From positions 45,639 through 109,638 of the forward strand of contig NZ_KB904713.1 in assembly GCF_000380165.1 (NCBI RefSeq): DNA of 64,000 bases. The letters are read 5' to 3'. Below the pieces are notes generated by a model that saw only the letters and a program-made list of their open reading frames with translations, made no database searches and was not told the origin of the DNA. A program made the position numbers and the translations under genes. This stretch comes from Wenjunlia vitaminophila DSM 41686 (GTDB lineage Bacteria > Actinomycetota > Actinomycetes > Streptomycetales > Streptomycetaceae). Positions 46,875 through 51,641 of the stretch are shown in pieces (position 1 is the stretch's first letter; every line of letters begins with the position of its first letter).

Positions 46875-47657
46875 TCAGTCAGCCAGCGAGCCGGTGAAGA
46901 TCTGCCACGCCAGGAGTGACTTCGCCGCGAGGCTGAGGACCAGGTAGGACTTCTCGCCGTATGCGTAGTCGGACCACCGGCCGACTCCGCGGTACTGGAG
47001 CCACTGGTTGACACCGAAGCTGAAGAAGAGAACGGCCTGGACGAGAACGATTCCGTACACGAAGCCGGGGACGGTCCTGGCCGCGACGATGTTGTACGCG
47101 ATGGAGACCCACGGCGTGACGCCGACCAGCGTCCCGAACCAGAACGGCAGCATCCTGGTCCTCGCCCGCCCCGGCGGGTTCATCACCTCCTCGACCCAGC
47201 CGAAGAGAATCATCCCGACGTTGGCGCCGACGACGGCGATGACGGCATTGAGGCTGGTGACGCCCGCGTAGAAGCCGATGAGGAGCACCATCAGGGTCGC
47301 GCTCAGCGCGTACTCCAGCCACCGGAAACGGTTGATGCCACGTCTGAGGTCGCGCTCGTAGACGCGGCGGCACACCGTCGCCGTCAGCAGGTGGTCCACT
47401 GCGGCGAGGACGAGGAACACGGCGACGGCCCAGCCGATCGGCACGTCGAACAACGCCTCCGGGGCGGGCGCTGTCGTTCCCGGTGGCCCCTCGGGGACGG
47501 ATGAGGTGATGGTGATCGAGAAGCTTCCGGCGAGCAGGACGACGGCCACGGCCTGGAGCAGGTGCAGCAGCGTGAGCCCCAGGTTCCACCTGCGGAGCCC
47601 AGCGAGGCGCTCGGCGGTGACACCGGTGGCCACCGATGTGCCGCCCTCTCGCTTCAC
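46875..47657 (-). CDS. heliorhodopsin
   Basis: 260-residue seven-helix membrane protein of the heliorhodopsin family, retinal-binding and with inverted topology relative to other rhodopsins. The Schiff-base Lys is K246 in SLAAKSLLAWQIF; the counterion Glu is E115 in RWLEYALSATLM; conserved His are H32 (LLHLLQ) and H89 (AVDHLLTA). Further signatures are ILFGWVEEVMN, PGFVYGI and YGEKSYLVLSL. The GTG at 47657 is set by GGGAGGAA just upstream; longer in-frame extensions read into non-coding sequence. No retinal synthase gene is nearby, so retinal must come from elsewhere. It lies divergent to a secreted ferritin-like protein. A light-sensing or regulatory role is known for few family members only. 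Confidence 0.93.
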   Translation of the reverse strand: MKREGGTSVATGVTAERLAGLRRWNLGLTLLHLLQAVAVVLLAGSFSITITSSVPEGPPGTTAPAPEALFDVPIGWAVAVFLVLAAVDHLLTATVCRRVYERDLRRGINRFRWLEYALSATLMVLLIGFYAGVTSLNAVIAVVGANVGMILFGWVEEVMNPPGRARTRMLPFWFGTLVGVTPWVSIAYNIVAARTVPGFVYGIVLVQAVLFFSFGVNQWLQYRGVGRWSDYAYGEKSYLVLSLAAKSLLAWQIFTGSLAD

Positions 47658-48056: not shown

Positions 48057-48998
48057 ATGGCTTCTCCCCTGCGGCGCGCGGTGACGTCCGCCGGACTGGC
48101 CCTCGCCACGGTCCTCGTGACCGCGCCGCTCGCCCAAGCCGGCGCCCAGCAGCCCTGGGCGCCGTTGGCCCTGAGCACGGTCCAGGACACGCGGGCCGCG
48201 ATGCGCGGCGAGGCGTTCGCCCACGCGTCGTACACGCTCTTCGCGGTCCAGGCCCGCCACGAGGACCAGGACGCCGCGGCCACGCTGTTCCGCTCCACGG
48301 CCGCGACGGAGCTGAACGAGCACTTCACCGAGGAGGGCGAACTCATCGACTTCGTCGGCAGCGACGAGTCCAACATCCGGCAGGCCATCGAGGGGGAGCG
48401 CCACGAGGCCGCCACCATGTACCCGAGCTTCGCCGAGGAGGCACGGGAGGACGGTGACACCAAGGCCGCCGAACTGTTCACCGAGCTCGCCGCGGACGAG
48501 GACCAGCACCGCAAGCTGCTGACGACGGCGTTGAAGGCGTTGACCACGGGAACGGTGGACGTCCCGGCGCCGCCGACGGTGGACCCGGTAAAGGTCCGCG
48601 CGGGGCTCCCGAAGGTCTCGTCCGCGCGCACCCGGCACAACCTGGACGAGGCCATGCACGGGGAGGCGCTGGCGAACGCCGCCTACACCCTGTACGCCCG
48701 GCACGCCGAGCTGAAGGGCCAGCACAAGCTGGCCGAGCTGTTCCGCGGGCTGGCCAAGGTGGAGCTGCGCGAACACTTCGCGGGTGAGGCCAAGCTGGCC
48801 GGACTCGTCTCGCGCACGGCGAACAACCTGCGCGCCAGCATCGCCGGGGAACGCTACGAGGCGAAGGTGATGTACCCGGCCTTCGCCGCCCGGGCCCGTG
48901 CCGCCGGTGACGTCAAGGCGGCCGACCTGTTCGCCGAGATCGCCGGTGACGAGGCCAGGCACGCCGCGGCCTTCAAGGAGGCCCTGGAGGACCTCTGA
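48057..48998 (+). CDS. secreted protein with two ferritin-like (rubrerythrin-type) domains
   Basis: 313-residue exported protein. A signal peptide ends near residue 28 (LVTAPLAQAGA). Two homologous halves follow: residues 45-160 and 195-313, each with GEA-A-ASYTL/YTLYA, an E(L)xEHF motif, a GER-E-MYP motif and a final DE-xH (DEDQHRKLL, DEARHAAAF), the Glu/His pattern of diiron four-helix bundles. No rubredoxin Cys4 site is present. The tandem, secreted form suggests extracytoplasmic handling of iron or peroxide (inference). AAGGAA precedes the ATG. It is divergent from the heliorhodopsin gene. Confidence 0.85.
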   Translation: MASPLRRAVTSAGLALATVLVTAPLAQAGAQQPWAPLALSTVQDTRAAMRGEAFAHASYTLFAVQARHEDQDAAATLFRSTAATELNEHFTEEGELIDFVGSDESNIRQAIEGERHEAATMYPSFAEEAREDGDTKAAELFTELAADEDQHRKLLTTALKALTTGTVDVPAPPTVDPVKVRAGLPKVSSARTRHNLDEAMHGEALANAAYTLYARHAELKGQHKLAELFRGLAKVELREHFAGEAKLAGLVSRTANNLRASIAGERYEAKVMYPAFAARARAAGDVKAADLFAEIAGDEARHAAAFKEALEDL

Positions 48999-49057: not shown

Positions 49058-51418
49058 TCAGGGGGCGAGGGAGAAGTAGCTCTCCTCCTCCTGGGTGAAG
49101 TGCAGGCGCAGCACGGCGTGCAGGCCGTACAGGCAGGCCCGCAGGTCGTCGAGCTGTTCGGGGCGGGGCGCGGCTTCCTGGCCGGGCCCCGCCCGTTCGT
49201 CGGCCAGGGCGAGGTGGGTGCTGATCCGCTGGGCGAGCCGTTCGATCTCGCTGTGCGTCCGGCTCATGGTGGCGGTGGCCTCGGTCCCGCCGAGTGCCGC
49301 GGCGAGCGCCGGGTACAGTTCCCTCTCCTCCGCGCGCTCGTGCGGCAGCAGGCGTTCCGTGAGCAACGTCTGGGCGTCGTGCACCGCGGCCAGGGCCGCC
49401 GGCCCGGGGTCGGCGGAGAGCAGGTCGGCGGCCTTCCGCACCGCCTCGAGGACTTCCCGCAGCTCGGCGTGTTCGGCGGCGAAGCGGCGCAGCAGATCCT
49501 CGGTGTCGGGGGCCACCACGGTCCGGGTCCCCCGGTCCGGGCGCAGGGCCCGCAGGGCGTTGAGGATGACGGTGACGTCGATGCCCTCCTGGAGCAGGGC
49601 GCCGGGCGCGGGGGGCAGCAGGCCCAGTGCGGCGGCGGCCATCGCGGCGGTGGACATCAGCATGCCGCCCAGGGCGCTCTGCACGGCGATGCGCCGGGCC
49701 CGGGCGGCGATGGTCACCGCCTCGGCGAGCCGATCGACCCGGTCGGTGGTCAGCACCACGTCGGCGGCCTCGGACGAGGCGCTGGAGCCGTGTGCGCCCA
49801 TGGCCACGCCGATGTCGGCGACGGCCAGCGCCGGGGCGTCGTTCACGCCGTCACCCGTCATGATCGTCACCGCGCGTTCCCGTTCGGCCCGCACCGCCGC
49901 CACCTTCTGGGCGGGGGTCTGCTCGGCGTACACGCCGTCGAGGCCGAGGACCGCGGCCACCTCGCGGGCCGGCTCGGCCCGGTCCCCGGTGAGCATCAGC
50001 AGTCGCTCGATGCCGGCGGCGCGCAGCCGGCGCAGGGTCCGTGGCGCGTCGGCGCGCAACGGGTCGCGCAGCAGCACGGCGCCGGTGAGGGTTCCGTCGA
50101 GAGTCAGCCAGACCACGGCGGCGTTGTCCAGCCTCGCCCGGTTCTCCGCGGCGCGCGCCCAGGTGGGCAGGGCCTCCTCGGCGTCCCGCTTGCCGACCGT
50201 GACCCGGTGCCCGTCCACCGTGCCGGTGGCCCCGCGGCCCGGCTCCTCGGTCACGTCCACCGGCCGCGTCAGCTCCATCCCCCTGTGGTGCGCCTCGTCC
50301 ACCAGGGCGCGGGCCAGGACGTGCGGGGAGTACTGGTCCAGGGAGGCGGCGAACCGCAGGACGTCGGGTACCGGGCGCCCAGGCGCGGCGACGACGTCGG
50401 TCACCCGCGGCCGGCCCGTGGTGAGCGTGCCCGTCTTGTCCAGCACGACGGTGCGGGCGTGCCCGAGGCGTTCCAGGGCGCCTCCGTCCCGCACCACGAC
50501 GCCCTGCCGGGAGGCCCTGGCCAGCCCCGAGACGATGGCCACCGGTGCGGCCAGGAGCAGCGGGCAGGGCGTCGCGACCACCAGCACGGCGACCCCGCGG
50601 ACCGGGGAGCTGCTGGCGAGCCAGGCCGCCGCCGCCACGGCGAGGGTGAGCGGGACGAACCAGGCCGCGTACCGGTCGGCGAGGCGGACGACGGGGGCGC
50701 TGGTGGCGCTGGCCTGCTGCGCCAGGCGCACGATCTCGGCGTAGGTGCTGTCCCGTTCCGTGGCGGTGGCCAGGAGCTCGAACGCGCCGCCCGCGTTGAG
50801 CACCCCGCTGCGCACCCGTTCGTCCCGCGGCAGCTCGGTCTGCCGCGGCTCGCCGGTGAGCGCCGACTCGTCCAGCACGGCGGTGGCGCTGGCCACCCGT
50901 CCGTCCACGGGCACCACCTCCCCGGGGCCGATCACCAGCAGGTCCCCGGGGGCCACCTGGTCCAGGGGAACGACCCGCACCTGCTCGCCTTCCCGGCGGC
51001 GGGCCGAGCGCGGCACCCGTTCCAGCAGGGCGCGCAGGTCACGTGACGCCCGGCGTTCGGCAGCCGACTCCAGCCACCTCCCGGTGGCCAGCATCAACCC
51101 CACCAGCGCCCCGGCCAGGTACTCCCGCACGGCCAGGGTGCCGGCGAGCGCCAGCACCGCGATCAGGTCCACCCCGGTGTGGCCGTGGACCAGTTCCCTG
51201 ACCACCCACCACAGGGCGGGCCCGAGGGCGGCCACGGTGCCGACGGCCCAGAACACGTCGGCGAGCAGGGTGGCCCCGGTCAGCCAGGCGATCCCACCGG
51301 CGACCAGGGCACCGCCGGTCACCAGGGTCAGGGCCGGTGCCGCGCCGTGTCGAAGCAGGGCGGTGAGCGCGTGACGGTACCGCATCCGTGACGCGTCGGG
51401 CTCCTGGGGCCGGACCAT
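49058..51418 (-). CDS. P1B-type metal ATPase fused to a C-terminal hemerythrin domain
   Basis: 786-residue fusion. Residues 1-630 are a heavy-metal P-type ATPase: A-domain LDESALTGEP, membrane metal site VVATPCPLLLAAP, phosphorylation site D327KTGTLT, and GDGVNDAPAL hinge. The usual CPC is replaced by TPC, which changes the expected metal (Co/Fe/Zn subtypes rather than Cu). No N-terminal HMA domain is seen. Residues 640-786 are a hemerythrin-like four-helix domain with HAELREVL, LPHERAEERELYPAL, THSEIERL and LRLHFTQEEESYF, a non-haem diiron O2/iron sensor. The ATG at 51418 follows GGAGGGAA. An O2- or iron-responsive metal exporter is inferred. Confidence 0.9.
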   Translation of the reverse strand: MVRPQEPDASRMRYRHALTALLRHGAAPALTLVTGGALVAGGIAWLTGATLLADVFWAVGTVAALGPALWWVVRELVHGHTGVDLIAVLALAGTLAVREYLAGALVGLMLATGRWLESAAERRASRDLRALLERVPRSARRREGEQVRVVPLDQVAPGDLLVIGPGEVVPVDGRVASATAVLDESALTGEPRQTELPRDERVRSGVLNAGGAFELLATATERDSTYAEIVRLAQQASATSAPVVRLADRYAAWFVPLTLAVAAAAWLASSSPVRGVAVLVVATPCPLLLAAPVAIVSGLARASRQGVVVRDGGALERLGHARTVVLDKTGTLTTGRPRVTDVVAAPGRPVPDVLRFAASLDQYSPHVLARALVDEAHHRGMELTRPVDVTEEPGRGATGTVDGHRVTVGKRDAEEALPTWARAAENRARLDNAAVVWLTLDGTLTGAVLLRDPLRADAPRTLRRLRAAGIERLLMLTGDRAEPAREVAAVLGLDGVYAEQTPAQKVAAVRAERERAVTIMTGDGVNDAPALAVADIGVAMGAHGSSASSEAADVVLTTDRVDRLAEAVTIAARARRIAVQSALGGMLMSTAAMAAAALGLLPPAPGALLQEGIDVTVILNALRALRPDRGTRTVVAPDTEDLLRRFAAEHAELREVLEAVRKAADLLSADPGPAALAAVHDAQTLLTERLLPHERAEERELYPALAAALGGTEATATMSRTHSEIERLAQRISTHLALADERAGPGQEAAPRPEQLDDLRACLYGLHAVLRLHFTQEEESYFSLAP

Positions 51419-51584
51419 GTCGTTCCCTCCGGTCGGTGGTCGGCGGCCGGGAACTCCCGGTCCGGCCGGTCCACTCCCGGTACCCGGTGACGGGCCGTGG
51501 CCGACGCCCGACTCACCCGGACGGGTGTCGGTGGGGCGGGACAACGAGCGGGGGCGGTGTTCCCGGTGGCAGTGACAGAACCAT

Positions 51585-51607
51585 AGTTGAGTGAGTTAGA
51601 CTCAACT
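51585..51607 (+). promoter_or_regulatory. HAIR element (HspR operator) upstream of clpB
   Basis: AGTTGAGT-N7-ACTCAACT is a perfect inverted repeat whose core TTGAGT-N7-ACTCAA equals the HspR-binding HAIR consensus (CTTGAGT-N7-ACTCAAG). It lies 35 nt before the clpB start, in the promoter region; a GTGACA / GTTAGA pair (51572-51577, 51595-51600) is a possible promoter overlapped by it. In Streptomyces HspR represses dnaK and clpB, so heat-shock control is well supported. Confidence 0.88.
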
Positions 51608-51641
51608 AGACTGCGCGTGAGGACAGGAGGTTCCGAGTCAC

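Follow-up and report, generated by a model that had tools for sequence, protein, structure and literature searches.

A probable P1B-5-ATPase of the Nia family with a hemerythrin-like tail, encoded beside a probably exported tandem rubrerythrin-like protein in Wenjunlia vitaminophila

Here we analyzed a stretch of 64,000 nucleotides from Wenjunlia vitaminophila DSM 41686 (called the window throughout) and found in it a gene whose product, judged from its sequence, is probably a Nia-family P1B-5-ATPase and as such an ordinary representative of a class already described. In the same judgment, which covers identity and function jointly, the protein would carry out the ATP-driven efflux of Fe2+, and perhaps of Ni2+, under the control of a cytosolic diiron tail. 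The pump being of an already-described kind, the fresh detail worth keeping is its pairing with a rubrerythrin-like protein, whose gene is convergent with the ATPase gene and separated from it by 60 bp. No description of such a pairing was found in the open-access papers searched, subscription papers lying outside the search; one review mentions P1B-5 and rubrerythrin once each, at different points of its text, and in PMC11841059 the P-type ATPase is of the copper type and stands beside a cbb3 oxidase.

Table 1. Features of the window discussed in the text (positions are those of the whole stretch)
Feature	Position	Strand	Basis or remark
Tandem rubrerythrin-like protein, probably exported, 313 aa, two ferritin-like domains	48057..48998	+	Pfam, alignment
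Putative P1B-5-type ATPase with C-terminal hemerythrin-like domain	49058..51418	-	786 aa, ATG at 51418
Hemerythrin-like domain, predicted four-helix bundle	49061..49480	-	Pfam, alignment, model
QEGID motif, last transmembrane helix	49577..49591	-	alignment; QExxD in 52/52 loci
TPCP motif, putative transmembrane metal site	50561..50572	-	alignment of 52 loci
Part of the intergenic stretch between ATPase and clpB, HspR/HAIR-like inverted repeat	51569..51620	.	read by eye

The open frame of the ATPase reaches at most from 49058 to 51544, which with a TTG start would give 828 amino acids; the ATG of Table 1 is codon 43 of that frame and has GGAGG upstream at normal spacing, and the length counted from it is the most likely one. 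The protein matched the E1-E2 ATPase and Hydrolase profiles of Pfam (146.6 and 91 bits, both well over their cut-offs), and its tail scored 56.4 bits with the HHE profile PF01814, Hemerythrin, whose cut-off is 25.3; an HMA domain gave no Pfam match at E 0.001. All the P-type catalytic motifs (TGE, DKTGT and TGDGxND) are present, and the complete set numbered from the ATG is TGEP 188, TPCP 283, DKTGT 327, SPH 364, TGDGVND 521 and QEGID 610, with the catalytic motifs, TPCP and QEGID positioned as expected. The initial annotation, which had read here a TPC-type P1B ATPase starting at that ATG, lacking an HMA domain, ending in a hemerythrin domain and akin to hemerythrin-linked P1B-5 pumps, is upheld by these matches and, for the kinship, by the QExxD motif and by the tree with Nia described below.

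P1B-5-ATPases are defined by TPC in the transmembrane metal site and QExxD in the last transmembrane helix, and P1B-4-ATPases by SPC together with HEGxx motifs. TPCP and QExxD were both found in all the 52 aligned P1B-5 loci, Nia included, a set made up of 40 places in the genomes of the phylum taken with their flanks, nine plasmid loci, two contig loci (L009 and L010) and the window. The two contig loci came from a pattern scan whose 80 loci were mostly unrelated P-type ATPases, one of the patterns being a catalytic motif, and from which only these two were taken as P1B-5 and five as outgroups. Maximum-likelihood analysis of 65 rows placed 55 P1B-5 rows including Nia in one group (support 96/79) against ten outgroups (CPC, CPH, SPC and other P-type ATPases, several of them long-branched), the protein of Acidothermus cellulolyticus being absent from the tree. 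Within the group, the window ATPase belongs to a clade of 12 rows (100/99) with Streptomyces, mycobacterial-type and other actinobacterial rows, and the P1B-5 relatives devoid of the hemerythrin-like tail fell outside the tail-bearing group at a weakly supported fork (83/96). The assignment follows from the domains, the motifs, TPC with QExxD, the tree and the identity to Nia of Sinorhizobium meliloti (SMa1163), which amounts to 46.6% over residues 79-811 of the window protein. The description of this ATPase class as uncommon did not stand, because TPC and QExxD are the marks of P1B-5, a class already known, and matches to the group were found in 47 of 396 genomes of the phylum (E 1e-100).

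Nia shares with the window protein the TPC and QExxD motifs and a C-terminal hemerythrin-like domain with H, HxxxD/E, HxE and HxxxE, and differs from it in having Asp at the place of E697 and Leu at the fifth place after the last histidine. The locus that we read as Nia/SMa1163 (L118, pSymA 637544-639730) carries no annotation in its record, and we identify it so because the listing at E 1e-70 gives no other place on that replicon. The Nia locus of 22 kb held no match to the tandem rubrerythrin family, unlike the window, where the ATPase gene converges on such a gene. Streptomyces homologues on a plasmid (L120) and on a chromosome contig (L009) are P1B-5-ATPases with a hemerythrin-like tail, 67-71% identical to the window protein. 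Their neighbourhoods differ from the window: no rubrerythrin match was found in them, and genes for universal stress, CBS and flavodoxin proteins are present.

The distribution of the pump gene fits that of a mobile accessory gene. Among the window's own genome and 20 relatives it occurred in just one other genome (G399, of the same family), and the only further genome belonging to the genus gave no match, while 259 plasmid records matched the ATPase at E 1e-70, of which 74 cover at least 80% of the query and the weaker ones may include other P1B types. At three places, in Armatimonadetes, Methylobacterium and an actinobacterial genome (L010:6707-11347, L126:7788-13234 and L154:940-6158), the P1B-5 gene adjoins a second, different P-type ATPase, annotated in L126 as cation-translocating.

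The tail, present in 41 of the 52 P1B-5 proteins, shows in the window the pattern H650, H693xxxE697, H722xE724 and H773xxxE777. In the 39 tails that were aligned (L155, mis-cut by the motif rule, and L156, whose tail lies in a second frame, were set aside) H650, H693, H722, E724, H773, E777 and E779 are invariant, and the place of E697 holds Glu or Asp; in the unaligned tail of L155 the fourth ligand histidine is lost, Gln standing at the place of H773. The initial annotation had expected five histidines and two acidic ligands. Five histidines are indeed there, yet the fifth, H767, is kept in 23 of the 39 tails and is not conserved, and HxE replaces the canonical HxxxH. Careful alignment, for which a complete lack of the ligands had been named as the refuting outcome, thus gave the variant ligand set of P1B-5 tails and not the canonical one. 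In PMC9388753 the P1B-5 tail pattern is given as H-HxxxE-HxE-HxxxxD and that of ordinary hemerythrins as H-HxxxE-HxxxH-HxxxxD, and the P1B-5 domain is described as sensing either oxygen/redox or iron, with the choice between them unclear. Judged by alignment, the window tail is the published P1B-5 ligand set except for Glu as the last acid. A canonical, oxygen-carrying hemerythrin is ruled out on its ligands, namely HxE in place of HxxxH and Glu as last acid.

As to the position of the last acid, the window tail has HxxxE/HxxxxE where PMC9388753 has HxxxxD. The same source describes for A. cellulolyticus (A0LQU2) a P1B-5-ATPase with a hemerythrin-like tail and a non-heme diiron centre, like the window protein, and by its description the last motif there is HxxxxD, against the HxxxE invariant in our alignment. 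Because the fifth place after the last histidine is Leu in Nia, which has Glu at the fourth, this fourth-place Glu is the better candidate for the last acid ligand, and it is kept in every aligned tail, Nia included. A model of the tail built from two sequences gave a four-helix bundle (mean pLDDT 87.7). Searches of this model with Foldseek and VIA-align returned no match at E 0.001, many kinds of helix bundle being tied, and the comparison with the PDB listed 3cax and 2p0n, which we take to be the hemerythrin-like proteins PF0695 and NMB1532, tied with unrelated helix bundles. What the fold search adds to the predicted tail is the term four-helix bundle, and nothing further.

The protein encoded next to the pump has an N-terminus that, read by eye, looks like a signal, and from its sequence it is probably exported. 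It gave a rubrerythrin match in Pfam, and an alignment of 44 rows (the window and 43 relatives) has two diiron sites whose Glu and His positions are each conserved in 40-44 of them; no rubredoxin domain was matched in it in Pfam, and the classic rubrerythrin model of NCBIfam stayed below its cut-off. On the other side of the ATPase lies clpB, divergent, with a TTGAGT-7 bases-ACTCAA repeat upstream of it at 51583-51610, which presumably resembles the HAIR element bound by HspR. Scans for promoters and terminators found none, and a low-oxygen regulator box, searched with a consensus and up to two mismatches, was matched 704 times in the window, where chance alone would give 982, a result that carries no information. 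Beyond the rubrerythrin-like gene we observed a heliorhodopsin gene (46875-47630, minus strand, open frame to 49004; NCBIfam HeR 258 bits against 100) containing the stretch SLAAKS, taken as that of the retinal lysine; heliorhodopsins are reported to be enriched near redox genes, in passages of a heliorhodopsin paper that do not name rubrerythrin. As a partner of the pump it was rejected, since no match was found in the other P1B-5 loci of the set of 52 or in 43 rubrerythrin loci.

Those 43 loci are the stretches outside the window that carry the tandem rubrerythrin family (L195-L204 and 33 more, with the single-domain L205 and L206 left out). In the phylum only the window's own genome of 396 matched the family at E 1e-20; in a draw of the class 48 of 394 genomes matched at 1e-15, eight with a full-length tandem copy; in the order of genome G428 37 of 297 matched at 1e-40; and among plasmids 9 of 72,556 records matched at 1e-10. 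A P1B-5-ATPase bearing the tail, or whose tail falls at a contig end, stands within 10 kb of the rubrerythrin family in eight of the 43 loci, where about 0.1 would be expected by chance even with a pump in every genome (no stretch being longer than 19.7 kb and the genomes measuring about 8 Mb). Five of the eight belong to five genomes of one genus (L197, L199, L251, L256 and L258) and one to another genus (L243, convergent with a small gap, as in the window), and the last two (L201 and L204) are two contig ends of a single genome, G418, with P1B-5 fragments only. The other neighbours in the window, namely clpB, ybjN, a reductase and the heliorhodopsin gene, recurred in none of the 43.

On plasmids, Mycolicibacterium aubagnense (L119) resembles the window in having a tailed P1B-5-ATPase beside a tandem rubrerythrin that is exported and shares 46.3% identity with the one in the window; there, unlike in the window, the two genes lie on the same strand 135 bp apart and are followed by a VIT-family gene, and the rubrerythrin looks by eye like a lipoprotein where the window's looks secreted. 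A Methylocapsa polymorpha plasmid has a single-domain exported rubrerythrin, a universal stress gene and a frame-broken P1B-5 gene within 7 kb. In this plasmid, pRX1 (L172:21-3595), the P1B-5 gene is split over two frames; the second carries the hemerythrin-like tail and continues, with no intervening stop, into an RND/HlyD-type adaptor. The gene may be broken, the break may be a sequencing error, or pump and adaptor may be fused. Because the lineages are related, the eight loci are not eight events. Counted as separate settings, there are four on chromosomes (the window, the two genera and G418); two more are plasmids from other lineages, one of which has the rubrerythrin in single-domain form and the pump broken.

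In a comparison of class genomes, a tailed P1B-5-ATPase occurred in four of seven genomes with a tandem copy and in two of 40 without (Fisher's test, P = 0.003; five of seven and P = 0.0003 if the contig-end fragment of G418 is counted), the window's own genome being left out, the two of 40 becoming six if forms without the tail count, and the result being only indicative as the groups were unmatched for kinship and the 40 were a stepped choice. Among 13 further class genomes with a single-domain rubrerythrin match, three had a P1B-5-like match. A general linkage between P1B-5-ATPases and rubrerythrins is rejected, only two of the 52 P1B-5 loci (the window and L119) having it, and 35 of the 43 rubrerythrin loci have no P1B-5 gene nearby. 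ATPases with CPC or SPC and of the calcium type also occur near the rubrerythrin family, among them an SPC/HEG neighbour in L199, in contrast to the TPC/QExxD of the window. In the genus of L243, two loci (L244:10321-13209 and L245:6602-9400) have in the spot of its P1B-5 gene a P-type ATPase of the calcium type (matched by NCBIfam type IIA models below their cut-off), whose gene converges on that of the rubrerythrin at a distance of a few bases.

The linkage supports a role in iron or oxygen handling, and it could also reflect shared stress islands. According to this alternative, which we rate at somewhat under an even chance and which concerns the pairing and not the identity of the pump, the two proteins share no pathway and both are passengers of stress or low-oxygen islands containing universal stress, CBS, pyruvate phosphate dikinase (PPDK) and phosphoketolase genes. 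Universal stress genes are present in 15 of the 52 P1B-5 loci, L256 joins rubrerythrin, P1B-5, universal stress, PPDK and GH65 genes, and in L198, L244 and L245 the place beside the rubrerythrin gene is taken by another P-type ATPase. However, around the window copy no universal stress or CBS gene was matched between 38000 and 62000 although the pump and rubrerythrin genes lie 60 bp apart, and the closeness of the pairs in L119 and L243 also speaks against mere passengers. Pump and rubrerythrin could instead form a two-sided iron-safety module that has arisen or spread repeatedly, a tentative proposal that we hold to be rather doubtful. The settings taken for it are the window, G418, the two genera from the order to which G428 belongs, the Mycolicibacterium plasmid and the Methylocapsa plasmid, the last with its single-domain form and frame-broken pump. 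In such a module the diiron tail would gate ATP-driven export of Fe2+ on the cytosolic side, and the paired rubrerythrin-type sites outside the membrane would oxidise or hold the exported iron and remove peroxide.

Regarding the metal, Fe2+ and Ni2+ are reported as substrates of Nia; PMC4932525 states that these two metals induce Nia and accumulate in the nia mutant, and that in S. meliloti CCNWSX0020 a nia deletion left tolerance to Cu, Zn, Cd, Pb and Ni unchanged, the list of metals given there being without iron. We infer a pump that would use ATP to export Fe2+, and possibly Ni2+, from the cytoplasm under the control of a cytosolic diiron tail whose loading or oxidation would depend on iron and oxygen; with less assurance, the exported double rubrerythrin may oxidise the iron at the outer face, hold it or make it peroxide-proof. 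The iron context comes from the rubrerythrin-like neighbour in the window and in M. aubagnense, in the latter together with the VIT-family gene. A member of the Nia family whose substrate in the cell is Ni2+ or some other divalent metal, iron being merely the cofactor of the regulatory tail, would agree with the report of both metals for Nia and with a Cellulomonas plasmid homologue placed beside genes for an ArsR/SmtB-type regulator, a DtxR-like metal-dependent regulator and NRAMP, which fit several divalent metals. We regard it as unlikely, as iron accounts better for the rubrerythrin and VIT neighbours and, in the one strain of PMC4932525 mentioned, loss of nia did not alter Ni tolerance. 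That the pump is a P1B-4 (SPC) or P1B-2 protein with an unrelated tail is highly improbable and was rejected on motifs and tree: the best NCBIfam subfamily names, heavy-metal and cadmium-type, suggest it, but the window has TPC and QExxD and not SPC/HEG or CPC and groups with Nia apart from such outgroups, and the cadmium-type model also matches the P1B-5-ATPase of L243 and so does not discriminate.

Retaining then the reading of an iron-exporting P1B-5-ATPase of the Nia family as the probable one, the pairing bears on two questions about the P1B-5 group, namely which substrate these pumps move and what role the hemerythrin-like tail plays; the diiron-site neighbour, probably exported, points to iron.
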